From Polyangia bacterium (GTDB lineage Bacteria; Myxococcota_A; Polyangia; Nannocystales; Nannocystaceae): a stretch of DNA of 64,000 nucleotides. Below the pieces are notes generated by a model that ran no database searches, was not told the DNA's origin, and saw only the letters and a program-made list of their open reading frames with translations. How positions within the stretch are numbered: the stretch's first letter is position 1; each line of letters begins with the position of its first letter. Both the position numbers and the translations under genes were made by a program. The stretch is from contig JAUIKS010000013.1 of the NCBI GenBank assembly GCA_030430565.1, forward strand, positions 186,001 to 250,000. The letters are read 5' to 3'. This document shows, piece after piece, positions 30,361 to 49,854 of the stretch.

Positions 30361-30492
30361 GCGCGCCGCGTCGAAGCTCAAGGGACGCGCGCGAGCCAGG
30401 GAGGGGCCGCCTGAGGACGGCGAGCGCGGAGACAATCGTCCGCTTGTCCCGCCCAGACGCTCGCCGCCCCCCTGGCGTTAAGCAGCGGCCCG
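30361..30492 (+). repeat. Dispersed structured element, copy A (132 bp, short form)
   Basis: Nearly identical to copy B, which begins 195 bp downstream, but lacks a 15-bp block (equivalent to the 3' side of the middle stem) between CTCGCCGCCC and CCCTGGCG. It keeps the outer pair GCCAGGG/CCCTGGC, the inner pair GGCGAGCG/CGCTCGCC and the conserved end GTTAAGCAGCGGCCCG. It lies downstream of the small gene ending at 30280, between converging genes. Confidence 0.85.
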
Positions 30493-30555
30493 CTGCCTGT
30501 ATGCCGTGAACGCCCGAGACCAAGGCTCTTGGCGTATCCCAAGAAGAGCGGTACG

Positions 30556-30702
30556 GCGCGCCGCGTCGAAGCTCAAGGGACGCGCGCGAGCCAGGGAGGG
30601 GCCGCCTGAGGACGGCGAGCGCGGAGACGACCGTCCGCTTGTCCCGCCCAGACGCTCGCCGCCCGGAAGGTGGAAGGTCCCCTGGCGTTAAGCAGCGGCC
30701 CG
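30556..30702 (+). repeat. Dispersed structured element, copy B (147 bp)
   Basis: Full-length copy. Its start and body match copy A at almost every base until the 15-bp indel, and it ends in the same GTTAAGCAGCGGCCCG. Three nested pairings are visible: GCCAGGG/CCCTGGC, CCGCCT/AGGTGG (one G-T pair) and GGCGAGCG/CGCTCGCC. It lies 67 bases before the 3' end of the minus-strand gene at 30770. Confidence 0.87.
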
Positions 30703-30769
30703 GTGCCCGCGTAGCGGATGCGCCCCAGGAGGGCAATTCATACGCGGATCTGTTGTACGGAACTCAGGT

Positions 30770-31588
30770 CTAAAACCGGTAGGCCAGTCCAAGCGAGCCG
30801 GCCAGGAAGGTCTGAAAGGTCGAGACCGGCGCGAACCTCTGCGCCTCGCTCACGCCCTCGAAGATCGCCCCGCGGGCGACGACCCGCGCGCGGTCCGTGA
30901 CGACCCCGTAGGAGCGAAACGAGAACACCAGCGCCACCCGCTGCAGCAGGATCTCGACCTCGATCCCCAACCGGATCAGCCCCGAGCCGTAGTGCTGGAT
31001 CCCCTCGCGCCCCGGGCCGTGCTCATACTGGATCCGGTTGTAGATCCCGCCCCAGCCCGCGCCGATGGCGAGCTGCCCGAACTCGCCGCGCGCGGCGAAC
31101 AGCGCCACGCCGAGCTCGCCGAGCACGAGGTCCTGCGAGGTCGTCTCGTTGTTGTCCTCTGACAGGAAGCGCAGCGAGCCCGAGCGCGCGTTGAAGTCGA
31201 GCGCGAGCACCGGCGTCACGCGGTAGCGGGCCAACAAGCCGGCGCCCCCGAGCGTCGTCGTATTGCCCAGGTAGCGCGAGTCAAAGCGGACGACGGTCGG
31301 CCGGATCGGCGGCGTCTGGATCGCCACGCCCTCGAGCCCCAGCAAGAATTTTCGCGGACGAGGGCGCGGGCGCGGCTTCGGAGGATCGGGCTCCTCCCGC
31401 GCGACCTTCAATTCGGCTTCTGGGCTGGCGGCCTGGTCCGCGCCCACTGCGGCCTTGGGCTCGGCGGCCCAGATCGCGCGCGGCGTGAGCACGAGCGGCA
31501 CGCACAGCGCCGCCACCGCGGTCCAGCGTCGCCGCAGAGGCGCCGCGGAGTCCCCGCGCGCGCGCGCTTGCTCGGAGCCGACGGCCAC
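30770..31588 (-). CDS. Predicted outer-membrane beta-barrel protein
   Basis: 272 aa, GTG start. A signal peptide (basic start, hydrophobic core about 22-36, ending AIWAA) is followed by a Pro/Arg-rich linker (PPKPRPRPRPRKF) and then alternating strands (FLLGLEGVAIQ, LLARYRVTPVLALDFNARSG, LGELGVALFAARGEFGQLAIGAGWG) finishing in LGLAYRF. A C-terminal phenylalanine after aromatic/hydrophobic alternation is the usual end of BAM-inserted barrels. The size would suit a small barrel of 8-10 strands. The family is not recognised. It diverges from yicC across 64 bp. Confidence 0.68.
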   Translation of the reverse strand: MAVGSEQARARGDSAAPLRRRWTAVAALCVPLVLTPRAIWAAEPKAAVGADQAASPEAELKVAREEPDPPKPRPRPRPRKFLLGLEGVAIQTPPIRPTVVRFDSRYLGNTTTLGGAGLLARYRVTPVLALDFNARSGSLRFLSEDNNETTSQDLVLGELGVALFAARGEFGQLAIGAGWGGIYNRIQYEHGPGREGIQHYGSGLIRLGIEVEILLQRVALVFSFRSYGVVTDRARVVARGAIFEGVSEAQRFAPVSTFQTFLAGSLGLAYRF

Positions 31589-31652
31589 CGCGGCGAGAAT
31601 AGAACCGCGCGCCCCCTTGCGGTAGCCCCACGGCGCGCGCTACGTCCCCTTC

Positions 31653-32612
31653 GTGTCGCTCAGGAGCATGACAGGATTCGGGGCGGCGTCGCGTCCCCTC
31701 GGCGCGGCCTTTGGAGCCGGGGGATCGCGGCCGACGCAGACGCTCTCGGTCGAGCTCCGCTCGGTCAACCTCCGCTTCCTCGAGATCAAGGTTCGCCAGC
31801 CCTTCGGGACCCCCTGCGAGGAGCGGATCCGCAAGCAGATCAAGCGGCGCCGCAGCGAGCTCGGGCGCGGGCGCGTCGATGTCCTTGTGCACATCCAGCG
31901 CGTGAGCCCGAGCGACGACGAAGCGGCGCTCGGGATCGACGAGCCGCGGCTCCGGCAGACCCTCGCCGCGAGCCGTCGCGCGGCCGAGTTAGCGCATGAA
32001 CTAGGTGTTGAGGTCCGTGCGCCTAGCACCCTTGAACTATTGAAGTATTCGCAGTTTCAGTCGCAGTCCCACCGCGGCGGAGACGGCGACCGCGCGACCG
32101 CGATCCCGGACGTTTTGGAGCCCTGTCTCAACGAGGCCCTCGACGCGCTCTGCCAGATGCGCGCGCGGGAGGGCGCGGCCCTGGCGGAGGAGATCCTGGA
32201 GCACGCCCGCCAGCTCGAGCAGCGCGTCGCGGCGATCGAGGTCTCGCTGACGGGCGAGGCCGAGCGGCTGCAGGGCCGGCTCCGCGAGCGCGTGCACGCC
32301 CTGCTCGCGCGGGTCGACGCCGAGAAGCCGACCGAGGATCGGATCGCGCAAGAGGTCGCGATCCTGGTCCAAAAAGGCGACGTGACCGAGGAGTTCGCGC
32401 GGATCGCCAGCCATCTCGCCCAGCTGCGCGGGGTCGTCGGCGCCGAGCACAAGGCGGGGCAGGGCAAAACGCTCGATTTTCTGTGCCAAGAGCTGTTTCG
32501 CGAGGTCACGACCATCGGCAGCAAGATCACGAGCCACCGCGGCAGCGGCCTGATGATCGAGGCCAAGAGCTGTGTCGAGCGGCTCCGCGAGCAGGTTCAA
32601 AATGTTGAGTAG
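31653..32612 (+). CDS. yicC: YicC/YloC-family endoribonuclease
   Basis: 319 aa with the family opening SMTGFG and the C-terminal signature FLCQELFREVTTIGSKITSH. YicC proteins cleave RNA endonucleolytically and in E. coli affect sRNA decay. The GTG at 31653 yields MSLRSMTGFG, matching the usual spacing before the motif. The gene comes 135 bp before gmk, a pairing (yicC-gmk) conserved in many bacteria, which supports both assignments. The coiled middle (about 160-230) is as in the family. Confidence 0.93.
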   Translation: MSLRSMTGFGAASRPLGAAFGAGGSRPTQTLSVELRSVNLRFLEIKVRQPFGTPCEERIRKQIKRRRSELGRGRVDVLVHIQRVSPSDDEAALGIDEPRLRQTLAASRRAAELAHELGVEVRAPSTLELLKYSQFQSQSHRGGDGDRATAIPDVLEPCLNEALDALCQMRAREGAALAEEILEHARQLEQRVAAIEVSLTGEAERLQGRLRERVHALLARVDAEKPTEDRIAQEVAILVQKGDVTEEFARIASHLAQLRGVVGAEHKAGQGKTLDFLCQELFREVTTIGSKITSHRGSGLMIEAKSCVERLREQVQNVE

Positions 32613-32747
32613 TGGACAGTCGGCGGACGCCGTGGGATGCCGGTTTCACGCGCCGGCGACGGATTGCTGGCGTCCGCGAGCCCACGCGGCTCAATCCACG
32701 GCCCAAGGAACGGCCCAACAAGCGGGCCGCGCAGGGAAGCGAACACC

Positions 32748-33470
32748 ATGACGAACGTCGCTGGTCATCGAGGCCTGCTGCTGGTCGTGTCCTCGCCGTC
32801 GGGCGCGGGCAAGACCACGCTCTGTAACCGCCTGCGCGCCGCGTTCCCGCGGCTCGGCTTCAGCGTCTCCTACACGACGCGAAAGCCGCGCAAGGGCGAG
32901 ATCGACGGGGTGCACTACCACTTCGTCGACAAGGCGACCTTCGCCGAGATGGCCGCCGCCGACGAATTCGCCGAGTACGCCTGCGTACACGGCAACAACT
33001 ACGGGACCTCCGCGAAGCTCGTCAACGCCGCGTTGTCCGCCGGGCGCGACCTCCTGTTCGATATCGATTTCCAGGGCGGGCGACATCTCAAGCGCAAATT
33101 CGCGGACGACATCATCCTCGTCTTCATCTTGCCGCCCTCGCTCGTCGAGCTCGAGCGGCGGCTGCGAAGTCGCGCCACCGATGTGGAGGAGGTCATCGCG
33201 CGGCGGCTTCGCGTGGCGCGCGAGGAGCTGCGACACTACGATGAGTACGACTACGTCATCGTGAACGACAACCTCGATCGAGCGTTTGACGCGCTCCGCG
33301 CCGTCTATGTCTCCGCGCTGCACCGCCGCGCGCGCCAGCGAGTCGCGGCCCAAGCCGTGCTCTCGGGACAACAAGTCCTGCTGATCGGGACCATGGGGGA
33401 GGGCTACCGCGTCGCGCCGGCGGCCTCCTTCAGCGTCGAGCCGAGGGACGGTGGCCAGGAGGAGCGATGA
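32748..33470 (+). CDS. gmk: Guanylate kinase
   Basis: Phosphorylates GMP to GDP. P-loop VSSPSGAGKTTLCNRL (near residue 14), the GMP-binding segment SVSYTTRKPRKGEIDGVHYHF, VHGNNYGTS and LLFDIDFQGG are all present. The frame is open from 32637; the ATG at 32748, preceded by CAGGGA, gives 240 aa, longer than the usual 205 because of a 30-residue C-terminal tail. One point differs from many homologues: the lid-region Arg series is present, but the Q-G-A of DIQGA is FQGG. The stop overlaps the next ATG (ATGA). Confidence 0.95.
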   Translation: MTNVAGHRGLLLVVSSPSGAGKTTLCNRLRAAFPRLGFSVSYTTRKPRKGEIDGVHYHFVDKATFAEMAAADEFAEYACVHGNNYGTSAKLVNAALSAGRDLLFDIDFQGGRHLKRKFADDIILVFILPPSLVELERRLRSRATDVEEVIARRLRVAREELRHYDEYDYVIVNDNLDRAFDALRAVYVSALHRRARQRVAAQAVLSGQQVLLIGTMGEGYRVAPAASFSVEPRDGGQEER

Positions 33471-35977
33471 GCCCCGGGCTTGAGGCCGCCAGCAGCGCGG
33501 CCGCCACCACAACTTCGACGACGAGCGTGGACAGCTCGTCGGCCGCGACGAGCGTCACGAGCGGTCGCGCGGACGACTCGAGCCGACCGCACCGCGATCT
33601 GCAGTCGCTGTTCGACGAGGTGCTCGCCGAGCTGCACAACCAGACACGTCCCGAGCCGCCCGACGTGGGTCTGGTCGACCGCGCGTTCAACCTCGCCACC
33701 AAGGCCCACGCCGGCCAGGTGCGCCGCAGCGGCGAGCCGTACCTGATCCACCCGGTCCGGGTCGCGCGGACCATCGCGCGCCTCGGCCTCGGCGCGTGCA
33801 GCGTGGCCGCCGGGCTGCTGCACGACTCTGTCGAGGACTCCGAGCTGACGGTCCCCGACGTCGCCGAGCTCGTCGGCCCCGATGTCGCGATCATCGTCGA
33901 CGGCGTCACCAAGATGGGCAAGGTCCCGTACCTCTCCCGTCAGGAGCAGCAGGCCGAGAGCTTCCGCAAGATGCTGCTGGCGATGAGTCAGGACATCCGC
34001 GTCCTGCTCGTCAAGCTCGCCGACCGGCTCGACAACATGCAGACCCTCGAGCACATGCCGCTGCGCAAGCGCGTGCGGATCAGCCGCGAGACCATGGAGA
34101 TCTACGCGCCGCTGGCCCATCAGCTCGGCCTGCAAGAGCTCCGCTCCGAGCTCGAGAACCTCAGCTTCAACTACCTCGAGCCGGCCGAGTACGAGAACGT
34201 CACCGGCAAGGTCGAGTCCCTGCTCGCGGCCGCGCCTCGCTTCATCCAAAACGGCGTCGAGGAGTTCGTCAAAGCCTTCGCGGTCGGGGAAGAGCACGGC
34301 GCGCGCGGGATGTTCCGCGATGACGACGTGCGCTGGGAGGCCGAGCGCTTTGGCGAGATCACCATCAAGCCGCGCGTCCGTACCACCTACGAGATGTACC
34401 GGGCCCAAAACGCCCGCGACAAGTCGATCGACCACGCCTCGGACATCGTCCAGTACGAGATCATCGTCTCCGACCGCACCGCCTGCTACGTCGCGCTCGG
34501 CGTCGTGCACAGCCTGTTCAAGCCGGTCCCCGGCTCGTTCCGCGACCACATCGCGCTCCCGCGCCCCAACCACTACCAGGCCCTGCACACCACCGTCGTC
34601 AACCGCAGCGGCGTGCGCCGCAGGGTTCACATCCGTTCGCGGGCGATGGACGCGGTGGCGTCACGGGGGATCGTCGCCGAGTGGGAGCGCGACTCGACCG
34701 CGGTCGCCGAGCAGAGTCAAAACGGCGCCTGGCGGCGACCGATGTGGCTCAAGGAGGTCCTCGACTGGCAAGAGGAGGTCTCGGATCCGCACGAGTTCAT
34801 CGCCGCGGTCAAGGCCGACCTGTTCGCCGACGAGGTCTACGTGTTCACGCCCCAGGGCGACATTCGCACGTTTCGCAAGGGCGCCACGCCCATCGACTTC
34901 GCCTTCGCGATCCACACCGACGTTGGCTCGCGGGCGTCCGGCGCGCGCGTCAACGGTCAGCTGGTCCCGCTGCGGTACCAACTCCGGCAGGGCGACACCG
35001 TCGAGATCATCACGAGCCCCAAGGCGCGCCCGCGCCGCGAGTGGCTGAAGATGTGTCGCAGCGCCCGGGCTCGCGCGCGCATCAAGCACTTCCTCCGCGC
35101 CGAGGAGCGCACGCGGCTGCGCTCGATCGGCCGCAGCCTCATCGAGCAGGCGCTCGGCCTGCAGGGTCGCGCGCTCAGCGAGCTGGAGGAGCAGGGCGTG
35201 GTCGCCGAGAAAGCCGACACGTTCCATCTCGGCCGCGACCTCAAGGGTGTAGACGGCCTCTACGAGGCGGCGGGCGCCGGTCTGCTCACGGTCGAGAAGA
35301 TCATGGACGTGCTGCTGCCGCGTGAGCGCAGCGAGCCGGAGCCCCGCGCGTCGCGCTCAGAGGCCAACCTGTTCACGCGGATGCTCCGCTCGCTCTCGGG
35401 TCGCAAAGATCGAAACGCGGCCCCGCAGGACGCGACGGCCGCCGGGCGAGGGCTCGACGCCACCGAGCACGAGGGCGCGCCCGAGACCCCGATTCAGATC
35501 ACCCGCAGCTCGATCGACAGCCTCGGATCCGGCGGCCCGATGATCCAGCTGGCCAGCTGCTGTAACCCGGTCCCCGGCGATCCCTTGTTCGGCTTCTTCG
35601 TGCCCAACAAGGGCATCATCGCCCACGTAGAGACCTGTCCTGACGCGCTGGAGCTGATCGGCGAGCGCCGCGTCTACCTCGCGTGGGAACCGGGGCTCGA
35701 GCTCTCGCGCGCGGTGACCGTCGAGGTCCGGACCACCAACACCGTCGGGCTGCTCGCCGAGATGAGCCGCGTGTTCTCCCACCACGGCGTCAACATCAAG
35801 CAGGCCAACTGCCGCACCTACGACTCCGGGCAGCGGGCGATCAACACCTTCCACGCCACCGTCGGCGCGCTCGAGCAGCTCCACTCGCTGATGCAGGCGC
35901 TCCAGGAGATCGACGGCGTGCTCGCGGTTCGCCGCGTCTTCGGTCGCAGCGCGGGCTACGGGTACGGGCGTTCTTGA
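33467..35977 (+). CDS. RelA/SpoT homologue with degraded synthetase site
   Basis: 836 aa in the long Rel order: HD hydrolase (about 70-220; AAGLLHDSVEDSE, VDGVTKMGKV, KLADRLDNMQTL), synthetase (about 290-410), TGS (EVYVFTPQGDIRTFRKGATP), a Cys-containing zinc-finger-like region (LASCCNPVPGD) and a C-terminal ACT domain. The hydrolase HD and ED residues and the DRLxN Asn are present. In the synthetase half GRxKxxYS is PRVRTTYE, the usual ExQIRT is RVHIRS (catalytic Glu absent), and D(I/L)YAxR is DIVQYE. YQALHT and FRDHIA persist. It may therefore be hydrolase-biased, regulating (p)ppGpp mainly by degradation. Overlaps gmk by four bases. Confidence 0.88.
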   Translation: MSPGLEAASSAAATTTSTTSVDSSSAATSVTSGRADDSSRPHRDLQSLFDEVLAELHNQTRPEPPDVGLVDRAFNLATKAHAGQVRRSGEPYLIHPVRVARTIARLGLGACSVAAGLLHDSVEDSELTVPDVAELVGPDVAIIVDGVTKMGKVPYLSRQEQQAESFRKMLLAMSQDIRVLLVKLADRLDNMQTLEHMPLRKRVRISRETMEIYAPLAHQLGLQELRSELENLSFNYLEPAEYENVTGKVESLLAAAPRFIQNGVEEFVKAFAVGEEHGARGMFRDDDVRWEAERFGEITIKPRVRTTYEMYRAQNARDKSIDHASDIVQYEIIVSDRTACYVALGVVHSLFKPVPGSFRDHIALPRPNHYQALHTTVVNRSGVRRRVHIRSRAMDAVASRGIVAEWERDSTAVAEQSQNGAWRRPMWLKEVLDWQEEVSDPHEFIAAVKADLFADEVYVFTPQGDIRTFRKGATPIDFAFAIHTDVGSRASGARVNGQLVPLRYQLRQGDTVEIITSPKARPRREWLKMCRSARARARIKHFLRAEERTRLRSIGRSLIEQALGLQGRALSELEEQGVVAEKADTFHLGRDLKGVDGLYEAAGAGLLTVEKIMDVLLPRERSEPEPRASRSEANLFTRMLRSLSGRKDRNAAPQDATAAGRGLDATEHEGAPETPIQITRSSIDSLGSGGPMIQLASCCNPVPGDPLFGFFVPNKGIIAHVETCPDALELIGERRVYLAWEPGLELSRAVTVEVRTTNTVGLLAEMSRVFSHHGVNIKQANCRTYDSGQRAINTFHATVGALEQLHSLMQALQEIDGVLAVRRVFGRSAGYGYGRS

Positions 35978-36077
35978 GCCTCAAAACGGTGATCCGCGCG
36001 GTTCTCGACGGCCGGTTGACAAGCGCTCAGGGGCCCGCTATCCCTCCCGCTCCCGACGCACCACACGCGAGCGACCG

Positions 36078-36248
36078 ATGGCATCCTTCACGAAGATCAC
36101 CAAGAAGAAGCGCGCCCGCCGGCGCAAGAACATGGGCCACGCCCGCAAGATGAAGCAGGGGCGCCGCAGCACCGTCTCCTACGACGAGCTGTTCGCCGAC
36201 TGCGGCGAGCCCGGCAAGCCCGCGCCGAAGAAGCCCGACAACAAGTAG
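36078..36248 (+). CDS. Small basic protein (56 aa), conserved type
   Basis: A 57-codon frame 100 bp downstream of the Rel gene. The N-terminal half is extremely basic (KITKKKRARRRKNMGHARK), then STVSYDELFADCGEPGKP and a Lys/Pro tail. The compact shape, Met-Ala start and lack of a signal peptide suggest a nucleic-acid or ribosome-associated protein. I have a recollection of similar short proteins in other deltaproteobacteria but cannot verify it. A weak hairpin (TGGGAC/GTCCCA, 36251-36269) starts two bases after the stop and might terminate it. Confidence 0.58.
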   Translation: MASFTKITKKKRARRRKNMGHARKMKQGRRSTVSYDELFADCGEPGKPAPKKPDNK

Positions 36249-36570
36249 TTTGGGACAGGTTACGTCCCACCGTGCACCGCGCGTTGATCCTCGCTGATCG
36301 ACGACGCGGTGCGTGCAATTTCGAAACTCACCGCGGCGCGATATTGCGCGGCGTGTGCGTAAAGCGCTCGCTAGACCCTCTACGGGCGCAGACGGTGTCG
36401 ATGGATCGAGGCGCGCCCGCGTCGATCACCGCGGCGTGAACGGGTCCCGCGCGGGCTCGTCAGCGGACGGATCGAAGCGCGCCGTGGGACGTTTACGCGA
36501 CCAGGCCTCGGCTTGATCAAGCACAGCGCTGTGCGTAGTCTCGGAACGCGCTTGTATTATTGGAGACCCG
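36249..36570 (+). promoter_or_regulatory. Gap upstream of the pseudokinase gene, with palindromes and a -10 element
   Basis: About 320 bp with no gene. It begins with the TGGGAC/GTCCCA hairpin. Near its end the palindrome TTGATCAA (36513-36520) directly adjoins the perfect 14-bp palindrome GCACAGCGCTGTGC (36521-36534). TATTAT (36555-36560) is a good -10 candidate, placing the second palindrome across the -35 position; TGGAG precedes the ATG at 36571. This layout suits a repressor or activator site. Confidence 0.45.
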
Positions 36571-38955
36571 ATGACCGAAGCGACGACGGCTGCCCGCGAC
36601 CTATCCCCTGGAACGGTTCTGGACGGCATGTACACGACCGGGCTGGTGGTCCGCAGGCGCCAGGGCGCGACCACCTACCAGGCCATCGGTCCGAGCGAGG
36701 AGCCGCTCGCGGTCACCGTCTACGACGCGGGCTGCTTCGCAAACGCGGACACGCGTGATGACTCGCTGCAGGCGATTCGCACCCTCGAGTCCGTCGACTC
36801 GCCGGCGGTCTTAGAGGTCGTCGACTCTGGCCGGCTCGACGACGGCGGGATCTACGAGGTCCACGAGCGCTTCGACGGGGCGCCGCTGAGCGAGTCATCC
36901 ACGCTCAACAACACGGACGCGCAGGCGATCCTCGGCGCGGTGATCGACGGGCTCATCGCTGGGAGCGGAGAGGGCGTGATTCACCGCAACCTCGGCCCCG
37001 AGGTCGTGTTTCGCGGCGCGGACGGAGCGATCAAGCTCGGCGGCTTCGCCGTCGGCGAGCCCCGTGAGCGGGGTACAGGCGCGCTCTCCACGATCGCGCC
37101 GGAGCAGATTCAGGGCGATCGAGCGCCCGACGAGGCGACGCTCGTCTACAACGTCGCGGCGCTCGCGATCCGACTCGTCGCTGGACGGTCGCTGTTTCTC
37201 GGCTCCGAGGCTGCGCAGCTGCGTCAGCACGAGCAGGGCGAGGTCCCCGCGTCTCTGCCCGCGGTGCTGCGCAGCGCCCTCGCAAAACAACCGGAGCAGC
37301 GTGGCGCCACGCTCGAGCAGCTCCGAGGGCAGCTCGCCGAGCTCGCGCGCGGTCCCCACGAGCTGCCCGAGGCGCCGCCAGAGGCGGATTCGCCCACAGT
37401 CGAAGATCGCCTCGAGGTCACGCTCACGCCGGTCGAACAATCTGCGCCTGCGGACGGAAATTCTGCATCCGAGAAGCCCGTGGCGGCTCAACTTGCGAAA
37501 ACGCCCGAATCCGCGTCAAGTGCGGCTGCGGACGCCCCGCCGGCGGCGGAGAAAACCGCGCCGGCGCCAAAGGAATCGTCCCCCGACGGCTCGAAGCCGA
37601 GTACAGTCGGACCCACGAACACGGCCAAGGCGGCGGCGTCCACCGCGGCTCCCGATCGAGTTCAACAGGGAACAGACGTGGCGAAGAAGTCGGACAAACC
37701 CAGCGCGCCCAAGAAGCCCGCAGCCAGGGCCCCGCAGCTCGCTCCTCCTCCGACGCTCGGCGAGGCCAAGCCGGCTACACCGCCGAGCATCGGAGGTGCC
37801 CCAAAGGTCACTCCACCGACGGCGCCGAAACTCGGCGCGCCGAGCATCAGCGTCCCCTCGATCTCGCCGCCGGCAGTGACCGCGCCGAAGATCGGGGCGC
37901 CGAATATCACCGCGCCGTCCCTGAGCCCGCCGACGCTCGGGGCTCCGAAGCCGCCGAGCGCGACCAAGAAGCGGGACAACGACGCGCCCAAGCCTCGCAC
38001 GCGCGGGTGGACCATGTTCATGGAGGCGACGGACGAGGACGACGAGGCCGCGGTGATCGCCGCGACGCCGACGCCCACGCCGACGCCGACGCCGACGCCA
38101 ACGCCGACACCGACACCGACGAAGAGCCCAAGTCCGGCGCCGTCCGTGCCGCCGGTCGCGGGGGGGGGCACCAAGCCGAGCACGCGTGGGTGGACCATGA
38201 TCATGGACGACGCCGACGAGGCGGAGGTCGCGGCCGCGACCCCCGGCGGCGTCACCCCGCCTGCCGCTGTGGCGGCGAACCCGAACATCACCACCCGCGG
38301 GTGGACGATGCTCGACGAGCTCAACGAGGACGACTCCTCACCGCACAGCGCCCCGATGGCCCCGGCGAAGCCGGCCGCCAAGCCGCGCCCTCCAGGCAAG
38401 CCCAGCTCCCGCGGGTGGACCATGTTCATGGAGGCCGAGCTCGAGGCCTCGCGCAGCAACGAGGCCGTCGCGGAGGACGACCTCGTCGACCACGATCCCG
38501 ACTTCTACGAGGGACCGGTCTACACGGACACCGGCACCGTCGTCTCGATGGCGCCGACCGCTGACAACCCCAACGTCGGCGGCGGCCCGCCGATCTCGCG
38601 GATGCCCGCCGAGGCCGAGCCGCTGACCTCCTTCGCGTCGCGCTTGCACGGCGACTCACAGCCCGAGCCCGCGCCGGCGCTCGAGCCCGAGCCCGATCCA
38701 GAGCCCGAGTTCCCGACCTTCGCCCAAGGCAGCGGCTTCGGGGGCGGGCTGACGCCGCCGCCCACGAACTTCGACCAGCGCGAGCCGGCGCTCGAGGCGA
38801 AGGCGCAGGAGAACGAGTCAGCCGTCTCCGGGCCTGGCCGCGCCGCGCCGGTCAGCGTCGAGAAGCCGTCGAACACGACCCACACGCTGCTGATCGTGCT
38901 GCTGCTGCTGGTCGTGATCCTGGCGATCTACCTGGCGATCAACCCGCAGCCCTAG
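36571..38955 (+). CDS. Tail-anchored pseudokinase with RGWTM repeats
   Basis: 794 aa. Residues of about 15-250 have the fold of a bacterial Ser/Thr kinase, but the catalytic residues are gone: the VAIK Lys position reads LAVTVYD, HRDLKPEN reads HRNLGPEV (near 134) and DFG reads GGF (near 155). APE is kept (IAPEQIQG). A long disordered region follows, with Ala/Pro/Lys stretches, a GAP-type repeat (APKIGAPNITAPSL) and a PT run. Four copies of RGWTM lie near residues 477, 538, 576 and 613, each followed by acidic residues. A single helix near the C-terminus (TLLIVLLLLVVILAIYLAI) would leave the body in the cytoplasm. Likely a signalling scaffold. Confidence 0.8.
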   Translation: MTEATTAARDLSPGTVLDGMYTTGLVVRRRQGATTYQAIGPSEEPLAVTVYDAGCFANADTRDDSLQAIRTLESVDSPAVLEVVDSGRLDDGGIYEVHERFDGAPLSESSTLNNTDAQAILGAVIDGLIAGSGEGVIHRNLGPEVVFRGADGAIKLGGFAVGEPRERGTGALSTIAPEQIQGDRAPDEATLVYNVAALAIRLVAGRSLFLGSEAAQLRQHEQGEVPASLPAVLRSALAKQPEQRGATLEQLRGQLAELARGPHELPEAPPEADSPTVEDRLEVTLTPVEQSAPADGNSASEKPVAAQLAKTPESASSAAADAPPAAEKTAPAPKESSPDGSKPSTVGPTNTAKAAASTAAPDRVQQGTDVAKKSDKPSAPKKPAARAPQLAPPPTLGEAKPATPPSIGGAPKVTPPTAPKLGAPSISVPSISPPAVTAPKIGAPNITAPSLSPPTLGAPKPPSATKKRDNDAPKPRTRGWTMFMEATDEDDEAAVIAATPTPTPTPTPTPTPTPTPTKSPSPAPSVPPVAGGGTKPSTRGWTMIMDDADEAEVAAATPGGVTPPAAVAANPNITTRGWTMLDELNEDDSSPHSAPMAPAKPAAKPRPPGKPSSRGWTMFMEAELEASRSNEAVAEDDLVDHDPDFYEGPVYTDTGTVVSMAPTADNPNVGGGPPISRMPAEAEPLTSFASRLHGDSQPEPAPALEPEPDPEPEFPTFAQGSGFGGGLTPPPTNFDQREPALEAKAQENESAVSGPGRAAPVSVEKPSNTTHTLLIVLLLLVVILAIYLAINPQP

Positions 38956-38979
38956 CGCGACGCGAAGGCGCGACGCGAA

Positions 38980-39008: not shown

Positions 39009-39072
39009 TCGTCGTGTTGAGCTCGTCGAGTGATCCCGTCTCGGCGCGGGCCCGCCTGCCGTCGCGCCCGCG

Positions 39073-40294: not shown

Positions 40295-40301
40295 CGCGGC
40301 G

Positions 40302-42343: not shown

Positions 42344-42388
42344 TACGGGATCGATTCGGCCAGCGACGGCGGCGCTCAGGCTCTCGGG

Positions 42389-42411
42389 CTCGAGCGCCGC
42401 GCTCGCTCGAG
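42389..42411. terminator. Hairpin between converging genes
   Basis: CTCGAGCG (42389-42396) pairs perfectly with CGCTCGAG (42404-42411) across a 7-nt loop, between the end of the gene at 42343 and the end of the minus-strand gene at 42416. No T-tract is visible. Confidence 0.4.
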
Positions 42412-42415
42412 GGGG

Positions 42416-44266
42416 CTAGCGTTGTCGCGCCCGGCGAGCGCCGAGCCGTCCGAGGCCGAGCAGGAGCAGACACAGGCCGCCGAGGCCCGACGCGAGCCAC
42501 GTCGCGCGCGCGCGGTCGAGCCCGAGGCCGGCGCGTGGCGTCTCCTCCAGCGCGGTGATCCGACGCTGGACCGCCGGGTTGTCCGGGGAGACCGCCGCAG
42601 CGGTAGCGAGCAGCATGCGCTTCCCTGCGCTCGGGAGCGCGGGCGTCTCGGCCTCGGCGAGCAGCGCCTCCCGCTGCAGCGCCTGGCTGCGGACGGGGTC
42701 GACGGCTCGCGTGAGCACCGAGAGCTTGCGGAGCGTCCGCGCGGCCTTCACCCAGTCGCCCTCGGCCTTCGCGGCGGCCGCAGCCGCCTCGTAGACCGGC
42801 GCGATCGCGTCGACGCGCTCCGGGACCTCCGTGGCGAAGGCCGGGTTCGCGGCCAGCAGTCGATCGATCTGCTCCACCGTGTCGGTCAGCGCCTCGCTCT
42901 CGAGCGCCGCGCGCAGCTGCGTTTGCTCGCGGGCGCTGCGGCGGCTGTCGAGCAGCGCGATGTACTCCCGGGCCATGCGCTCCGGCTGTCGCTCACAGTC
43001 TGGGTCGATCGCGCCGCGCTCATCCAGCAGCTCACACTCGGGCGGGAGCAGCTCGGCCGCGTCCTCGCCGAGACGCGCGCGCAGGGCGAGGCGGGCGGCG
43101 TCGCGATACGAGCGCTCCGCCTTCGCGCGGGTGGTCTGTCCCCCCAGCAGCCGAAGGGTCTTGCGGCGGGTCTTTGGCGCGGGACCTGTGACAAAGGCCA
43201 GCAGCGCGCCGCGGGCCGAGGCGCGCACCCGCGGCAGCTCGGCGTCGATAAACTCGAGCAGCGGCGCCGCCGCCTGGGACGGGCGCCGCTCGCCGTAGGC
43301 CGCGAGCAGATCGCTGAGCTGGGCGGGGTCCTCGCGGACCGCCCCGATCGCGCGGTGAGGTAGCAGCCGGTCCATGCGATCGAGCTGGAACTCGGCGTAC
43401 TCCGACTGCCGTACCTCCACGCTGTCGTCAAAGGCGGCGCGCTGCTTCTCGCTCAGGCCCTCCGGCGTCGGCGGCCGGATCGAGCGGCGCACGAGCGACG
43501 GCACCGCCGGATCGCCGATCCGACGGATCGCGCGCCCGACCTCATCGCGGAACGTGCCCTTGTGGACATACGCGGCGGCGAGCAGCGCGTCGACGACGAC
43601 CGGCGCGCGGGCCGGCGCGCGGCCGATCTCGGACGCGGCCTGCAAGAGCGCCGCCTCGAGCACGCAGTCGCGGTAGATGTCGTGGAAGATCGGCTGGACC
43701 CGCGCCTGATCGAGCGCCAGCAGGTCTTCGAACCAGTCCTCGGACAGCTTGATCTTGTGCCCGTGCGCGCGCTTCCACGCGCGCGCGAAGTGACCGTAGC
43801 GGTTGGGCACGTCGCCGCCGATGAGCGACAGCAGCACGCGGTAGTCCTGCTTGCGGTGGGTCCGCTCAGCGAGCATCAGCTCGCGCAGCTGCGGCCACAG
43901 GTGGGCCGGCGTTCGGGCGAGCGCGCGCGCCGGCAGCTCGAGGTTCTCCAGCGGCGTCGTCCGCAGCTGCGTGACGCGATCGTGCAGATCCTCCAGCGTA
44001 CGCGGGGGCGAGATCAGCGTCGCCACGTCCACGTCCTCCGCGCCGTCCCGCGCGCGCGCGGTGTGCAGCGCCGCGCGTACGCCGTCACGCCGGCTCGTCT
44101 CCCACAGCAGCGACGCTCGGTCGCGCAGCTCCGCGAGCGAGCGCTCCAGCGCCGCCGCGTCCCCGTCATCGCCGACCCGCGTCTCGACGTCGACCTCCGC
44201 CGAGCCGCTACAGGCGGCGGTCAAGAGGGCGGCCAGAGCGAGGGAGCGACGAGCAAAACGCGGCAC
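42416..44266 (-). CDS. Hypothetical lipoprotein with HEAT-like repeats and C-terminal helix
   Basis: 616 aa, GTG start. Leader MPRFARRSLALAALLTAAC provides a lipobox-type Cys. The body is almost all helical and Arg/Ala/Leu-rich, with units such as VEQIDRLLAANPAFATEVPE, EIGRAPARAPVVVDALLAAA and DEVGRAIRRIGDPAVPSLV; the last is HEAT-like. A hydrophobic segment near the end (WLASGLGGLCLLLLGLG) followed by Arg residues would be a membrane anchor. No catalytic motif. It follows the PilZ gene by 65 bases on the same strand. A perfect palindrome ACGACTCGAGTCGT (44265-44278) overlaps its start. Confidence 0.62.
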   Translation of the reverse strand: MPRFARRSLALAALLTAACSGSAEVDVETRVGDDGDAAALERSLAELRDRASLLWETSRRDGVRAALHTARARDGAEDVDVATLISPPRTLEDLHDRVTQLRTTPLENLELPARALARTPAHLWPQLRELMLAERTHRKQDYRVLLSLIGGDVPNRYGHFARAWKRAHGHKIKLSEDWFEDLLALDQARVQPIFHDIYRDCVLEAALLQAASEIGRAPARAPVVVDALLAAAYVHKGTFRDEVGRAIRRIGDPAVPSLVRRSIRPPTPEGLSEKQRAAFDDSVEVRQSEYAEFQLDRMDRLLPHRAIGAVREDPAQLSDLLAAYGERRPSQAAAPLLEFIDAELPRVRASARGALLAFVTGPAPKTRRKTLRLLGGQTTRAKAERSYRDAARLALRARLGEDAAELLPPECELLDERGAIDPDCERQPERMAREYIALLDSRRSAREQTQLRAALESEALTDTVEQIDRLLAANPAFATEVPERVDAIAPVYEAAAAAAKAEGDWVKAARTLRKLSVLTRAVDPVRSQALQREALLAEAETPALPSAGKRMLLATAAAVSPDNPAVQRRITALEETPRAGLGLDRARATWLASGLGGLCLLLLGLGRLGARRARQR

Positions 44267-44331
44267 GACTCGAGTCGTACCGCGCGACGTGCACCGGGCA
44301 AGAAATCGGCGAACTCGGGCCGAGCTCGGCT

Positions 44332-44682
44332 TCAGTTAAGGCGCTCGGCCGGGACCGGGGCGCCGACCTCGGGGATGAACCGGAGGAAGCGGAGCCCGAC
44401 GCCCGAGAGCGCGCGCAAGCCGCCATCGTCGCCCGCGTACTGAAAGTAGTAGTGATTCTGGATGCGCGCGATCGCGCAGATCGCGGCCTCGTCGCCGGGG
44501 AACTGAAAGCGGACGATCGCCTTGCTGCGCAGGGGCAGGGGGTCGGGCATCTCGACGAACATGCCCGTCGTCGAGATGTTGCGGGCCACGTACCACTGGT
44601 CGCCGACGTCCTCGGTCGAGATCAGCACGCGGAACACCTTGTCGATTCGGGCAGCGGAGCGACGCTCGACGATCGCGGTCAT
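44332..44682 (-). CDS. PilZ-domain protein
   Basis: 116 aa from the ATG at 44682. It shows the RxxxR c-di-GMP-binding element near the start (ERRSAARIDK) and the D/NxSxxG element (RNISTTGMFVEM), with the barrel strands in between. Single-domain PilZ proteins bind c-di-GMP and alter motility or polysaccharide export. The open frame runs up to 45129, but that is on top of era in the opposite direction and is not coding. A perfect 14-bp palindrome (TCCTACATGTAGGA) lies 39 bp upstream. Confidence 0.78.
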   Translation of the reverse strand: MTAIVERRSAARIDKVFRVLISTEDVGDQWYVARNISTTGMFVEMPDPLPLRSKAIVRFQFPGDEAAICAIARIQNHYYFQYAGDDGGLRALSGVGLRFLRFIPEVGAPVPAERLN

Positions 44683-44720
44683 GCGCGGATTTTTGCAAGG
44701 TGGGAAGATGAGGTCAAATA

Positions 44721-44734
44721 TCCTACATGTAGGA
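44721..44734. promoter_or_regulatory. Palindromic candidate operator TCCTACATGTAGGA
   Basis: A perfect 14-bp palindrome in the 118-bp divergent gap between the PilZ gene (minus, start 44682) and era (start 44801). The surrounding 30 bp are AT-rich for this genome (GGTCAAATATCC). It could be a dimer-binding site for a shared regulator. No TF is identified. Confidence 0.4.
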
Positions 44735-44800
44735 GTTGTCGAATTTGCCTCCGCCCACGGTTTCGCCAATAACCCCCGCTCGAGACTGAGCGGAGCAGCG

Positions 44801-45853
44801 ATGGAACCTGGCGTTGAGCACGAAAAAAGCGCGAATGGCGCGAGTCGCGACACGAGCGCGCCGCCGACCCCCGTTGACGGTGCCGACGTCGAGACCGCGC
44901 CGCCCGCAGTGATCGGCCCGGATTTTCGCGCGGGCTTCGTCGCCCTCTGCGGACGACCCAACGTCGGCAAGTCGACGCTGCTCAACGCGCTGCTCGGCAC
45001 CGACCTCGCGGTCGCGTCCAAGCTCCCGCAGACCACCCGCGAGCGCATGCTCGGCGTGTGGACCACCGACAGCTTCCAGGCGGTCCTCGTCGACACGCCC
45101 GGGATCCACCGCGCACGCTCGGCGCTCAACAGCTACATGGTCGACGAGGCGCTCCGCGGCGCGCGGGATGTCGACCTCATCCTGATGCTCGCCGAGATCC
45201 CGATCGTCACGGACGAGGAGACCGCGAGCAAGTGGAAGCCGGGGCCGGGCGCGCTCGCGGTGCTCGACGCGTTGAGCAAAACCGGTCGACCGATCGGCCT
45301 CGTGTTGACCAAGCTCGACCGCCTACCGAGCGCGGACCTGCTGCTCCCGATCATTCACGCCTGGGTCGAGCGCGCGCCCTTCGCCTTCGTGGTCCCGACG
45401 AGCGCGCGCGAGCGAGTCGGCCTCGAGCGGCTGTCGTCGGAGCTGCTTAAGTTCCTGCCCCAGAGCCCGCCGCTCTACGACGACGATCAGCTCAGCGATC
45501 GCGCGATGCGCTGGCACGCGGGCGAGCGCGTGCGCGCGGCGATCTTCGCCACCCTGTCGCAAGAGCTGCCCTACAGCTGCGCCGTCACCATCGAGTCATT
45601 TAAAGAGCGACCCGACAAAGACGTCATCAAGGCGGCGATCCACGTCGAGCGCGAGAGTCAGAAGCCGATCTTGATCGGGCGCAAGGGCAAGACCGTGAAG
45701 ACCATCTCGACCCGCGCCAGGGCCGACATCGCGCGCTTCACCGGGCGACCCTGCGATCTGTTCGTGACCATCAAGGTCACGCGGAACTGGACCAAGAAGC
45801 CCGAGCTGCTCGAGAAGCTCGGCTATCACGAGCCCGTTGGAGGCGAGTCATGA
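44801..45853 (+). CDS. era: GTPase Era
   Basis: Ribosome-assembly GTPase that binds 16S rRNA. 350 aa with an acidic N-terminal extension of about 45 residues. G1 is GRPNVGKST (near residue 51), G2 lies at TTRERM, G3 is DTPGIH and G4 is TKLD. The C-terminal KH domain has KPILIGRKGKTVKTISTRAR and ends KKPELLEKLGYHEP. The frame is open upstream to 44522, but the ATG at 44801 gives the right family boundary. It overlaps der by four bases (ATGA), making an era-der pair. Confidence 0.95.
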   Translation: MEPGVEHEKSANGASRDTSAPPTPVDGADVETAPPAVIGPDFRAGFVALCGRPNVGKSTLLNALLGTDLAVASKLPQTTRERMLGVWTTDSFQAVLVDTPGIHRARSALNSYMVDEALRGARDVDLILMLAEIPIVTDEETASKWKPGPGALAVLDALSKTGRPIGLVLTKLDRLPSADLLLPIIHAWVERAPFAFVVPTSARERVGLERLSSELLKFLPQSPPLYDDDQLSDRAMRWHAGERVRAAIFATLSQELPYSCAVTIESFKERPDKDVIKAAIHVERESQKPILIGRKGKTVKTISTRARADIARFTGRPCDLFVTIKVTRNWTKKPELLEKLGYHEPVGGES

Positions 45854-47430
45854 GCGCGGAGGATGAGCGCGAGACGGAGCCCGTCGACAACGACGCGGGC
45901 GAGGGCGCGGCGCGAGTCGACGGCTATGACGGCCTCGACGGCTTCGACGAGGAGCTCGACGACGAGGAGCTCGCGGCGCTGCTCGAGGAGGAGGAGCAGG
46001 CCAACCGCAGCCACGGGCTCGTGGCGATCGTCGGGCGCCCCAACGTCGGCAAGTCGACGCTGTTCAACCGCCTCGTCGGCGCGCGCAAGGCCATCGTCGA
46101 GGATCGGCCCGGCGTCACCCGCGACCGGCTCTACGGCGTGAGCACCTGGGAGGGCCGCAGCTACATGGTCGTCGATACAGGTGGCCTCGATCCCTCGCTC
46201 GACGACGGCCTGCCGAAGCACATCCGCGCCCAGGCCGACGTCGCGATCGAGGAGGCCGACCTGATCCTGTTCGTCGTCGACGCCAGCGCCGACCCGACCA
46301 CGATCGACTTCGAGATCGCCGAGATCCTGCGGCGCTCCGATCGCGACACGATCGTCGTCGCCAACAAGGTCGACAACCCCGCGCGCGAGCTGACGGCGCA
46401 GGCCTTCCACGAGCTCGGCCTCGGCGACGTCATCGCCGTCTCGGCGGCCCACGGGCGAAACAGCCACGAGCTCTGTGACACGGTGATCGAGCGCCTGCCG
46501 CCCGTGCCCAAGCGCGACACGCTGGTGCAGCCCAGCGGCACGCGCATCGCCTTTATGGGTCGCCCCAACGCCGGCAAGTCGACCCTGGTCAACGCGCTGT
46601 TTAAGGACGCCCGCGTGATCGTTGACCCGACCGCCGGCACGACCCGCGATCCGATCGAGCTGCCCTTCGAACACAACGGCGAGGAGCTGGTCCTCATCGA
46701 CACCGCCGGCCTGCGGCGGCGCAAACAGATCGCGCGCGCGATGGAGAAGCTCGCCGCGATCAAGGCGATCCGCGTCATGGAGCGCACGCAGATCGTCGTC
46801 TTGGTGATCGACGCCACCGCCGGGGTCACCGATCAGGATCAGCGGCTCGCGCGGATGGCCTTCACGCGCGGCAAGGGCGTCGTCGTCCTGCTGCACAAGT
46901 GGGACCTGCTCGTGAAGGACAAGGGCGCTGCGGTCGCGCGCATGCGCGACACCGAGGAGCGGCTCGGCTTCCTCGAGCGCCCGCACATCCTCAAGACCTC
47001 GGTGCTCGGGGACGCCGACGCCCGCGGCCTGGGCAAGGGCAAGCCCGTCGGGATAAAGGATGCGCTCGACGCCTGTCTCAAGACCGCGAGCGCGCTGCGC
47101 CGTCGACTCCCGACCGCCGCGCTCAACGAGGAGCTGGCCACGGCGGTCGCCGAGCACCCGCCGCCGATGCTCAGCGGCAAGCCGGTGCGCTTGCTCTACG
47201 CGACCCAGGCCGAGCGCGAGCCGCCGCTGATCGTGATCTCCGCGAACCGCGGCCGATCGCTCCAGCCGTCCTACGAGCGCTACCTGCTGCGGCGGATCCG
47301 ACGGCGCTGGGGCCTGCGAGGGATCCCTGTGCGGATTGTCGTGCGCGCCCGTGGCAAGGGGAATCGCGCGCGCGCGAAGTCGCCCACGAAGCCCGGGCAG
47401 AAACGCAAGCGATCGAGCCCGCGCCGATAA
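45850..47430 (+). CDS. der: GTPase Der (EngA)
   Basis: Double-domain GTPase needed for 50S ribosome assembly. 526 aa, longer than the usual 440-490 because of an acidic N-terminal extension (about 1-55; DELDDEELAALLEEEEQ). It has G1 boxes IVGRPNVGKSTLFNRL and MGRPNAGKSTLVNALF, G3 motifs VDTGGL and IDTAGL, and the C-terminal KH-like domain (PPLIVISANRGRSLQPSYER, RRWGLRGIPVRIVVRARG) with a basic tail. ATG overlaps era by four bases. The acidic extension resembles that of Era next door and may be a lineage feature. Confidence 0.95.
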   Translation: MSAEDERETEPVDNDAGEGAARVDGYDGLDGFDEELDDEELAALLEEEEQANRSHGLVAIVGRPNVGKSTLFNRLVGARKAIVEDRPGVTRDRLYGVSTWEGRSYMVVDTGGLDPSLDDGLPKHIRAQADVAIEEADLILFVVDASADPTTIDFEIAEILRRSDRDTIVVANKVDNPARELTAQAFHELGLGDVIAVSAAHGRNSHELCDTVIERLPPVPKRDTLVQPSGTRIAFMGRPNAGKSTLVNALFKDARVIVDPTAGTTRDPIELPFEHNGEELVLIDTAGLRRRKQIARAMEKLAAIKAIRVMERTQIVVLVIDATAGVTDQDQRLARMAFTRGKGVVVLLHKWDLLVKDKGAAVARMRDTEERLGFLERPHILKTSVLGDADARGLGKGKPVGIKDALDACLKTASALRRRLPTAALNEELATAVAEHPPPMLSGKPVRLLYATQAEREPPLIVISANRGRSLQPSYERYLLRRIRRRWGLRGIPVRIVVRARGKGNRARAKSPTKPGQKRKRSSPRR

Positions 47431-47717
47431 CCCAGATGGCTCAAAACCCGCGATAATTGGGTCAAGACTCGAATTCTCCCGAGGTTGACCGGGGCCGTGT
47501 TCGGCGGGCGCGCGCTCGCGCGGGCCCGTCGCGCCTAGGGGGAGAGTCCAAAGTCCGCCAACTCTGTTGGCAAAAAATCGCGAATTCGCCAACGTGCGTG
47601 CCATTACACCCCGTTCAAGGGCCCTTTACACGCTCGAATTCCTTTGCGATTGTGTTGGCCCCGAGCTTGCTTGGTAAGGGGATGAGGGTTCGGACCGTCC
47701 CCTGGAGGATCCCAGAC
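47431..47717 (+). other. Leader region of the VWA lipoprotein gene
   Basis: 287 bp, AT-richer than its surroundings. The inverted pair GCCAAC/GTTGGC encloses TCT and precedes AAAAAA. TTTACA (47625-47630) with GATTGT 17 bases later is a weak promoter candidate. GGAGG lies about nine bases before the ATG at 47718. Confidence 0.3.
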
Positions 47718-49484
47718 ATGCGTGCTTCCATTTTGTCTCGAGTCGCCATCCTGGCAGGTTTCGCGGTTGCCTTGCCGCACCTGTTCGCCTGCCTCGCGCA
47801 CCCGGTCAAGCCGGTGCAGTACGACCAGAGCGCTGCCATTGAGGAAGGCATCGCTATCGCCATCAACAAGGACGTCGACATCCTCTTCGTCATCGATAAC
47901 TCCGGTTCGATGGGCGCGGAGCAGCAGCGACTGTCCGGCAACTTCGGCGCGTTCATCGACGTGCTCGAGGCTGACGACGTGAAGGCGAACTACCGCATGG
48001 CGGTCACCACGACCGACTACGGTAACCCGCGCTGCACCCCGGCGAATTTCCCGCGCCCGGCCAATCAGGGTCGCTTCGCGCTCTCCAGCTGTCGCAGCCG
48101 CATCGGTGACGGCGGTCAGAACGCGGGCAACGACTTCTACTTCGTGCCCGAGATGATCGACGCGACCACCGCGTGCACGGACTTCTGTGACCAGGGTGTT
48201 CACGACGCGCTCCAGGGCGAGTGGCGTCCGACCACCATCGAGCAGGACTCCTCCGAGGAGGCCCGCTTCTGGATCGAGAACATCGAGGGGCAGAGCAACC
48301 TCCCCGCAGGCGTCGAGGCGGCTGCCTCGGGCCTCGGGATCTCGGCCGCAAACGCGGCGTTCCGCTGCATCGGTCCGCAGGGCATCAACGGCTGCGGCTT
48401 CGAGTCGCAGCTCGAGTCGATGTACTGGGCGCTGGCCCGCGCCGAGGAGCCGGGCGAGGTCAACTACGGCTTCCTGCGTGACGCCGCGATCCTCTCGATC
48501 GTCCACGTCACGGACGAGGCGGACTGCTCGTTCAACCCGGCGCAGCAGAACATCTTCCTCGACCTCAACGACACCTGGTCCTGGGAGGAAGGCGCGTCCT
48601 CGCCGACCAGCGCCGTGTGCTGGAACGCCGGCGTCGAGTGCCAGGGCGCCGCGCCCGGCCCGTACACCTCGTGTGATGTCGTCGACAAGGACATCACCGG
48701 CAAGCTCATCCCCGACGAGAACGCCGACGCCACCGCCGAGAACGACGCGGTCCTCATCCCGATCGAGAAGTACGTCAAGCAGCTCAACGACATTGAGATC
48801 GAGAAGAAGATGATCGACCAGAACCAGGAGGTTCTGGTGTCCATCATCGGCGGCGTGCCCTCGGGCTACGACACGCAGATGGCCGAGATCCAGTACATGG
48901 ACAACACCGACGACGTCGGTGAGCAGGTGAAGTTCGGCATCGGGCCGGGCTGTGTCTCGGCGGGCGACGGCGGCAGCGCCATCCCGCCGGTGCGTATGCG
49001 TGACTTCGCCGAGCAGTTCACCATTGACGGTGAGCGCAACATGTTCTCGATCTGCGACGCGGACTACTCGAACGCGCTCAACGCGATCGCCAACCGAATC
49101 CGCGACCAGATCAAGCCGGCGTGCTTCAAGTCCTGCGTCGCGGACCTCAACCCGGAGACGCCGGAGCTCGACCCGAACTGCACGCTCGTCGAGGAGAACA
49201 CCGCGACCGGCGATCAGACCGACATCCCCGAGTGCGGCTTCGATCAGGACACCGCCGAGATCGTGCCGCCGCCCGGCGCGACCGCTTGCTTCCTCTACCT
49301 GTTCGACAAGAACGGCACCGAGACGCCGAGCGAGGCCGACAACATGTCGCCGGAGTGTGTCGACGACGGTTGGAACCTCGAGTTCGCGCTCGTCCGCACC
49401 GCGGCCGCGAAGGCGGGCTCCACGGTCAAGGCGACCTGCGAGCTGTCTGACCTGGTCGAGCGCGACTGCCCCGGACTTCTCTAA
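47718..49484 (+). CDS. VWA-domain surface lipoprotein
   Basis: 588 aa from the ATG at 47718 (GGAGG upstream); the open frame further upstream is not coding-like. The leader ends in LPHLFAC, a good lipobox. The VWA domain begins near residue 50 (DILFVIDNSGSMGAEQQRL; the MIDAS DxSGS is intact) and runs to about 330. Many Cys residues follow (CFKSCVADLNPETPELDPNC), suggesting disulphide-stabilised surface modules. Myxobacteria carry many such lipoproteins, often used in adhesion. A hairpin terminator follows. Confidence 0.85.
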   Translation: MRASILSRVAILAGFAVALPHLFACLAHPVKPVQYDQSAAIEEGIAIAINKDVDILFVIDNSGSMGAEQQRLSGNFGAFIDVLEADDVKANYRMAVTTTDYGNPRCTPANFPRPANQGRFALSSCRSRIGDGGQNAGNDFYFVPEMIDATTACTDFCDQGVHDALQGEWRPTTIEQDSSEEARFWIENIEGQSNLPAGVEAAASGLGISAANAAFRCIGPQGINGCGFESQLESMYWALARAEEPGEVNYGFLRDAAILSIVHVTDEADCSFNPAQQNIFLDLNDTWSWEEGASSPTSAVCWNAGVECQGAAPGPYTSCDVVDKDITGKLIPDENADATAENDAVLIPIEKYVKQLNDIEIEKKMIDQNQEVLVSIIGGVPSGYDTQMAEIQYMDNTDDVGEQVKFGIGPGCVSAGDGGSAIPPVRMRDFAEQFTIDGERNMFSICDADYSNALNAIANRIRDQIKPACFKSCVADLNPETPELDPNCTLVEENTATGDQTDIPECGFDQDTAEIVPPPGATACFLYLFDKNGTETPSEADNMSPECVDDGWNLEFALVRTAAAKAGSTVKATCELSDLVERDCPGLL

Positions 49485-49519
49485 GTTCGACACGAGCTTC
49501 GCGTCAGGAACTCACGCGA

Positions 49520-49557
49520 CAGGGCTCCCGCCGTTGGTGGGGGCCCTGCCTGCTTTT
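49520..49557 (+). terminator. Rho-independent terminator of the VWA lipoprotein gene
   Basis: A 10-bp stem with one G-T pair (CAGGGCTCCC at 49520-49529 with GGGGGCCCTG at 49539-49548) and a 9-nt loop are followed by CCTGCTTTT. It lies 36 bases past the stop. Confidence 0.7.
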
Positions 49558-49602
49558 CGTTCGTGGGTTTCGGACTTTCGAACTACCGCGCTGTGCGGGC
49601 TT

Positions 49603-49745
49603 CGGGCCGCTGCTTAACGCCAGGGAACCCTCCGTCTTCCGGGCGGTGAGCGCCTGACCACGTGAAGCGAATGGGCGCCGACGCGCTCACCGTCCTCAGA
49701 CGGCCCCTCCCTGGCTCGCGCGCGGCCCTTGAGCTCCGGCGAGAC
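49603..49745 (-). repeat. Dispersed structured element, copy C (about 143 bp, inverted)
   Basis: Reverse-complement of the elements at 30361 and 30556, with the conserved end CGGGCCGCTGCTTAAC at 49603. It differs from copy B at many sites, yet keeps three nested stems: GCCAGGGA/TCCCTGGC, CCGTCT/AGACGG and GGTGAGCGC/GCGCTCACC. Two sites show compensatory pair changes relative to copy B. Like the other copies it lies between converging genes. Confidence 0.82.
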
Positions 49746-49847: not shown

Positions 49848-49854
49848 GATCGGC

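Follow-up and report, generated by a model that had tools for sequence, protein, structure and literature searches.

A ~180-bp interspersed repeat with a conserved RNA-like hairpin near gene 3' ends in a Nannocystaceae genome

The DNA analysed here, referred to as the window, is a stretch of 64,000 nucleotides from a Polyangia bacterium of the family Nannocystaceae (assembly GCA_030430565.1, contig JAUIKS010000013.1, positions 186,001 to 250,000 of the forward strand). It contains three copies of a short non-coding repeat, designated A, B and C, whose structure, folding strand, genomic position, gain and long-term constraint are established below. The repeat was noticed in a first-pass annotation of the window, which placed the three copies between converging genes and recognised no named family. 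All three were recovered in the same places by a covariance model (R1, modelled core 150 nt) built from 44 copies (alignment A1). Both sites, A/B and C, are convergent by our own gene calls, which were made with a codon-usage model trained on the window's own genome. Rfam likewise offers no name, as nothing in the window reached a gathering threshold and nothing credible appeared up to E=10.

Copies and genes in the window

The features of the two sites are as follows (positions in the window, strand, feature).

28207-30018, +, gene on the 5' side of the A/B pair (gene call); a small predicted open reading frame, 30104-30280, also lies there
30361..30526, +, copy A; core 30370-30504; cmsearch 106.8 bits, E 8e-23
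30556..30736, +, copy B, full unit, with core 30565-30714 and conserved 5' and 3' edges; cmsearch with R1 159.7 bits, E 1.9e-35
30577..30585, +, 5' arm of helix P1 in copy B (GGGACGCGC); partner 30692-30701 (GCAGCGGCCC, one bulged A); 94.6% of cells paired
30586..30589, +, 5' side of internal loop 1 (GCGA), conserved; opposite GTTAA at 30687-30691; 0.17-0.25 changes per site
30590..30596, +, 5' arm of helix P2 (GCCAGGG); partner 30680-30686 (CCCTGGC); C-G/G-C and A-U/U-A/G-C double changes across copies
30602..30607, +, 5' arm of helix P3 (CCGCCT); partner 30668-30673 (AGGTGG); 99.2% of cells paired; one pair with four standard pair types
30608..30609, +, 5' side of internal loop 2 (GA in CCTGAGGACGG), conserved; opposite GGA at 30665-30667 (in CCGCCCGGAAGG); 0.29 changes per site
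30610..30621, +, 5' arm of helix P4 (GGACGGCGAGCG); partner 30653-30664 (CGCTCGCCGCCC); 99.6% of cells paired; double changes at three pairs
30622..30652, +, apical loop; hypervariable in part, with up to 20 changes at each variable site, and with a core (CGTCCGCTT) that is moderately conserved
30770..31588, -, convergent gene; TAG stop 56 nt past the modelled end of copy B (gene call and distance)
47772..49484, +, convergent gene flanking copy C at its 3' side; 107 nt from gene end to element (gene call)
49569..49750, -, copy C, complete; core 49591-49740; cmsearch 161.5 bits, E 6.6e-36
49855..50739, -, gene flanking copy C at its 5' side, 115 nt off, convergent with 47772-49484 (gene call); we take its product to be UbiA-like, a label given by eye with no family search behind it

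Copy A is the tandem neighbour upstream of copy B. As the first-pass annotation had noted, it is short of 15 nt within the middle stem; the missing block is GGAAGGTGGAAGGTC, which bears the 3' arm of helix P3. On the minus strand, a 134-aa open reading frame (30332-30736) runs across copies A and B; it is built of the repeat itself and is probably no gene.

RNA fold and covariation

The + strand of the repeat folds into a single long hairpin in which four helices stack and two internal loops are conserved in sequence. The consensus arms are GGGNCGCGC/GCAGCGNCCC for P1, GCCAGGG/CCCTGGC for P2, CCGNCT/AGNCGG for P3 and GGACGGCGAGCG/CGCTCGCCGCCC for P4, while the internal loops read GCGA/GTTAA at P1-P2 and GA/GGA at P3-P4 and the apical loop is largely variable. 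Conservation reaches ~10 nt 5' and ~22 nt 3' of the 150-nt core, giving a unit of ~180 nt. The three nested stems of the first-pass annotation are present as it described them, with P1 as a fourth, outermost helix. The base changes it reported between copies B and C, from CCGCCT/AGGTGG to CCGTCT/AGACGG in the middle stem and from GGCGAGCG/CGCTCGCC to GGTGAGCG/CGCTCACC in the inner stem, can be read directly in the sequence. Its claim of a constant outer stem did not hold, as the family alternates GCCAGGG/CCCTGGC with GCGTGGG/CCCACGC and others.

From those changes it had been argued that pairing is selected, and the alignment of 44 copies bears this out. Paired cells amounted to 96.0%, compared with 92.4% in shuffles and 34-47% when the partner was slid, and cells with a double change numbered 52 against 7.6 in shuffles. 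Parsimony on the tree of copies gave 29 events in which both partners of a pair changed and pairing was kept, of which 18 fall on terminal branches, versus 15 single pair-breaking changes. In a free scan of all column pairs, the pairs of P2 and P3 ranked top; the scan gave no extra helix and no covariation for a pseudoknot, for added pairs or for pairing within the apical loop. The N-N' pair of P1 is U-A in 15 copies, C-G in 13 and non-standard (A.G) in 16, with a mutual information of 0.92. Furthermore, G-U cells number 33 and A-C cells 2, and the + strand is therefore the folding strand.

The internal loops undergo 0.2-0.3 changes per site versus 7.35 in the apical loop, so that internal-loop changes are 25-40 times rarer. 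Judged from sequence, these two loops probably bind a protein.

Distribution, gain and decay of the copies

The genome searched is the window's own assembly (G000; 11.6 Mb, 68 contigs, 88% complete). A DNA search found ~45 near full-length copies plus fragments, and the search with R1 found 88 copies or remnants at 75 sites, each of at least 35 bits and with E down to 1e-36; copy number and match scores are far beyond chance. About 60 of the 88 are intact and ~28 are decayed, many through deletions. The first-pass annotation had named three outcomes that would speak against its claim, namely copies lying mostly inside genes, a larger alignment with no excess of compensatory changes, and a genome with no copies elsewhere. 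The alignment gave the excess described above, the genome holds the dispersed copies just counted, and 77 of the 78 copies with both neighbours callable are intergenic.

Outside this genome, the sole clear match comes from Myxococcales bacterium FL481, which carries one diverged copy (QKPP01000150.1, E 6.5e-12). The stems of that copy have changed, and GCGCGCGAG, CCTGAGGACGG, CCGCCCGGAAGG and CGTTAAGCAGCGACC are retained, including both internal loops. No copy was found in G001, the only other genome of the genus examined, and screening the class (318 genomes, strict filters) added nothing to the own genome and FL481. Among family genomes, R1 gave no match at E<0.01 besides G000 and G002. Neither a pattern scan of IMG/VR viral contigs nor a blastn search of phages and plasmids returned a match. 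A pattern scan of genome contigs yielded seven stretches, of which only the one in FL481 is real by model score, and weak matches in Nannocystis-like genomes (22 bits) were read as coding sequence.

The gaps that bear the element comprise 36 convergent, 29 tandem and 2 divergent ones. Set against the remaining gene pairs at these loci, the element-bearing gaps show an excess of convergent ones (p=5e-11) and a deficit of divergent ones (p=1.7e-5), and the repeat thus avoids promoter-bearing divergent gaps. Measured from the 3' end of the model, the stop codon of the facing convergent gene is typically 22-60 nt away. Genes facing this end terminate with TAG in 31 of 47 cases, compared with 38 of 115 among control genes that are followed by a long gap (p=2e-4, a post hoc comparison). 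The 3' flanks contain no T-tract, so they do not resemble a Rho-independent terminator of the SPRITE kind. At two loci, about five tandem repeats of the element's small 3' hairpin (GCCC GAAA GGGC type) follow beyond the element (L061 ~2600-2700 and L047 ~2750-2830).

Two gene pairs record the gain of copies. The adjacency of rplC and rlmE is kept in G001, G002, G010 and G020 with short gaps that contain no element, the one in G001 barely exceeding a terminator; in the own genome, the gap measures 475 bp and holds a terminator followed by an old remnant and by an intact element. In the case of serS and glpQ, the gap is 12 bp in G002 versus 684 bp with an array of elements in the own genome. Since these sites are empty in relatives, the copies were gained in the lineage of the own genome.

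Where a site holds multiple copies, they always stand head to tail (11 sites, 0 mixed). Of 23 fragments, most of them derived from the 5' end, 21 are located upstream and 2 downstream, an arrangement that replication slippage at the hairpin would best explain. The contig pairs C5/C10, C11/C47 and C30/C56 end in element arrays of the same subtype, with array-bearing contig ends at L121:3054-3308, L038:3526-3833, L099:3005-3545, L054, L103:1-327 and L118:1-130. Arrays probably broke the assembly at these three pairs, and longer, unassembled arrays likely exist.

Copies have a median identity of 90.4% to their closest relative at a different site, and no dispersed pair is more than 95.3% identical, barring contig ends that share an array. 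Among the 62 best copies, 44 keep all pairs intact and the rest have at most two broken; these copies were ranked as best by their model score, and active lineages that evolve slowly could mimic such intactness. Because copies are old, dispersed, still intact and compensated on terminal branches, the pattern argues for selection on most of them.

Interpretation and comparison with known systems

By its general properties (short, multicopy, non-coding, intergenic, dispersed and gained by insertion), the repeat is a small interspersed repeat, and we file it as a new family of this kind, unusual for its RNA-like constraint. Our reading, to which we assign a probability of about two-thirds, is that of a previously undescribed family of ~180 bp that spread in this lineage, is mostly kept as a structured RNA and may serve as a 3' boundary or stabiliser. 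The element would have spread as a non-autonomous unit through a putative trans-acting enzyme, and most copies would now be held intact in place because the RNA fold matters. Least certain is the last step, in which transcripts that run into the element may be halted there or shortened as far as the stable hairpin, so that between facing genes it would bound or stabilise transcript 3' ends in a strand-specific manner; as far as sequence can suggest a function, this appears to be the likeliest role. The first-pass annotation had offered a structured RNA, a REP-like or transposase-mobilised element and a transcription boundary as possible readings. These are not exclusive and the data favour a combination, without the strict REP-like part, for which no Y1 transposase was found.

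Several observations weigh against this interpretation. Of 78 cases, 16 have a 5' neighbouring gene that is oriented away from the element, which is therefore not simply the 3' untranslated region of that gene. Several decayed copies occupy ordinary positions, so no single site requires an intact copy. The copies show neither terminal inverted repeats nor an excess of inverted repeats, and no target-site duplication was detected at single-copy sites (p=0.12); an excess of flanking direct repeats vanishes once tandem sites are removed. In terms of folding, the reverse complement is about equally stable, and the minimum free energy structure of some single copies has a different upper half, with apical CGUCC paired with GGACG. 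This alternative pairing has no compensation on either arm and covariation supports the long hairpin, although the RNA may be bistable between the two upper-half folds.

Candidate mobilisers were searched for in the same 88%-complete assembly. No Y1 transposase (IS200/RAYT, PF01797) was found there, while control genomes gave matches; TnpB (PF07282; IscB was not searched for) and the IS110 recombinase (PF01548) were likewise not found in it. With no cognate enzyme found in the genome, the repeat was not assigned to REP/REPIN in the strict sense (RAYT, Y1_Tnp), to IS605-type omega RNAs (TnpB) or to IS110 bridge RNAs, and with no terminal inverted repeats or target-site duplication it was not classed as a miniature inverted-repeat transposable element (MITE) either. 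A genome-wide search with the 5' and 3' end motifs revealed no autonomous version in the assembly with an open reading frame between two ends.

Among known repeats, SPRITE, BOX and RUP of Streptococcus pneumoniae are mostly <200 bp, highly structured, present in dozens to >100 copies, nearly restricted to one lineage and enriched in convergent gaps; SPRITE lies near gene 3' ends and was proposed to be co-opted as a terminator, and BOX and RUP have terminal inverted repeats and target duplications (PMC3049150). By description, not by sequence, the present repeat shares with them its short, structured, multicopy and lineage-restricted nature and its convergent bias, and with SPRITE also the closeness to gene ends. 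It differs in being GC-rich, in having no terminal inverted repeats and no T-tract, and in its two conserved internal loops and strong strand-specific covariation. REP/REPIN sequences are dispersed, non-coding extragenic hairpins thought to be mobilised in trans by RAYT, with older copies decaying (PMC3116915, PMC2817692), and offer a functional parallel in these dispersed hairpins with decaying copies. Unlike them, the present repeat has no GTAG-type palindrome doublets in inverted pairs, measures ~180 nt, is always head to tail in tandem and has no Y1 transposase found with it. Enterobacterial RU-1 (127 bp, = ERIC) and RU-2 (168 bp) are intergenic and multicopy and were likened to MITEs (PMC2759123); they are similar in length, again compared by description rather than sequence.

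A purely parasitic non-autonomous element, resembling MITEs or short interspersed nuclear elements (SINEs), could also underlie these data, with the hairpin selected only in replicating lineages as an RNA or single-stranded DNA transposition intermediate and the post-gene position reflecting tolerated insertion. It would accommodate the decayed copies, the sites empty in relatives and the favoured strand, and parasitic repeats enriched in convergent gaps are known (PMC3049150). We consider it somewhat unlikely, given that the dispersed copies include no near-identical ones and thus show no recent burst, that compensation falls on terminal branches, that neither of the usual terminal signatures (inverted repeats, target duplication) is present and that tolerance by itself would predict a looser 3' spacing to stop codons. 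Independent small-RNA genes with their own promoters, acting in trans via the variable apical loop, would suit a hypervariable loop on a conserved scaffold and copies that are intact though old. The strict link to gene 3' ends, the expansion in a single genome and the lack of a conserved promoter-like block upstream, where conservation ends ~10 nt before the 5' end, make such genes improbable.

Repeats "similar to msDNA" (multicopy single-stranded DNA) were described in Nannocystis exedens by Lampson and Rice 1997 and Lampson et al. 2002, as cited by title in PMC6868368, and stand as a historical parallel of dispersed hairpin repeats in a myxobacterium, possibly a related organism. Spread of a retron-like RNA by reverse transcriptase, as Lampson and Rice (1997) proposed for those repeats, would draw on the enzymes that the genome encodes (two of retron type XIII and one of a group II intron). 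It is quite improbable here, as the element lies beside no reverse transcriptase and resembles nothing in the surroundings or upstream of the two retron enzymes, forms one hairpin rather than msr plus msd, and leaves truncated pieces that retain the 5' and not the 3' end; among relatives, it was found only in FL481, and the family genomes searched with R1 gave the restricted result reported above. A bacterial SINE-like retroelement, that is, a gene-less structured non-coding RNA copied by a host retron or group II intron enzyme and then recruited at dozens of gene ends as an RNA module held by a dedicated binding protein, is a speculative variant that we rate as equally doubtful. Integron attC-like recombination sites are scarcely credible: GTTAAGC, the only part that fits, matches GTTRRRY, and a 3' motif (GCGTTAAGC), a hairpin and a position after genes are present, but the mate at the other end is not RYYYAAC in the right register and lies outside P1, and the copies occupy 75 dispersed sites rather than one clustered array.

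Bacterial interspersed repeats are usually viewed as parasites that decay after insertion. In this genome, ~60 old dispersed copies retain a detailed RNA fold, with matched mutations on single copies and internal loops conserved to another genus. The family therefore offers a testable case of either a mobile repeat that has become an RNA module at the ends of genes throughout the genome or a mobile element with a structured RNA as transposition intermediate, and the covariance model and the empty-site pairs are direct handles on both possibilities.

Further observations concern loci elsewhere in the assembly. The retron type XIII reverse transcriptases (VTG motif) are encoded at L151:5058-6692 (G000:C11) and L152:4547-5848 (G000:C25), each with an upstream partner gene that we take, by eye, to be SWIM-like, and at the C11 locus a clear long hairpin precedes the enzyme gene (L151 ~4880-4950). 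The group II intron reverse transcriptase/maturase (L150:5522-6862, G000:C4) lies ~9 kb from two element copies. In the window, a short tandem repeat (CGTCCTTCGCT) at 49790-49860 adjoins copy C, and simple repeats like this neighbour (TTCGTTCTTCGTTC) are found upstream of the copy in L056.

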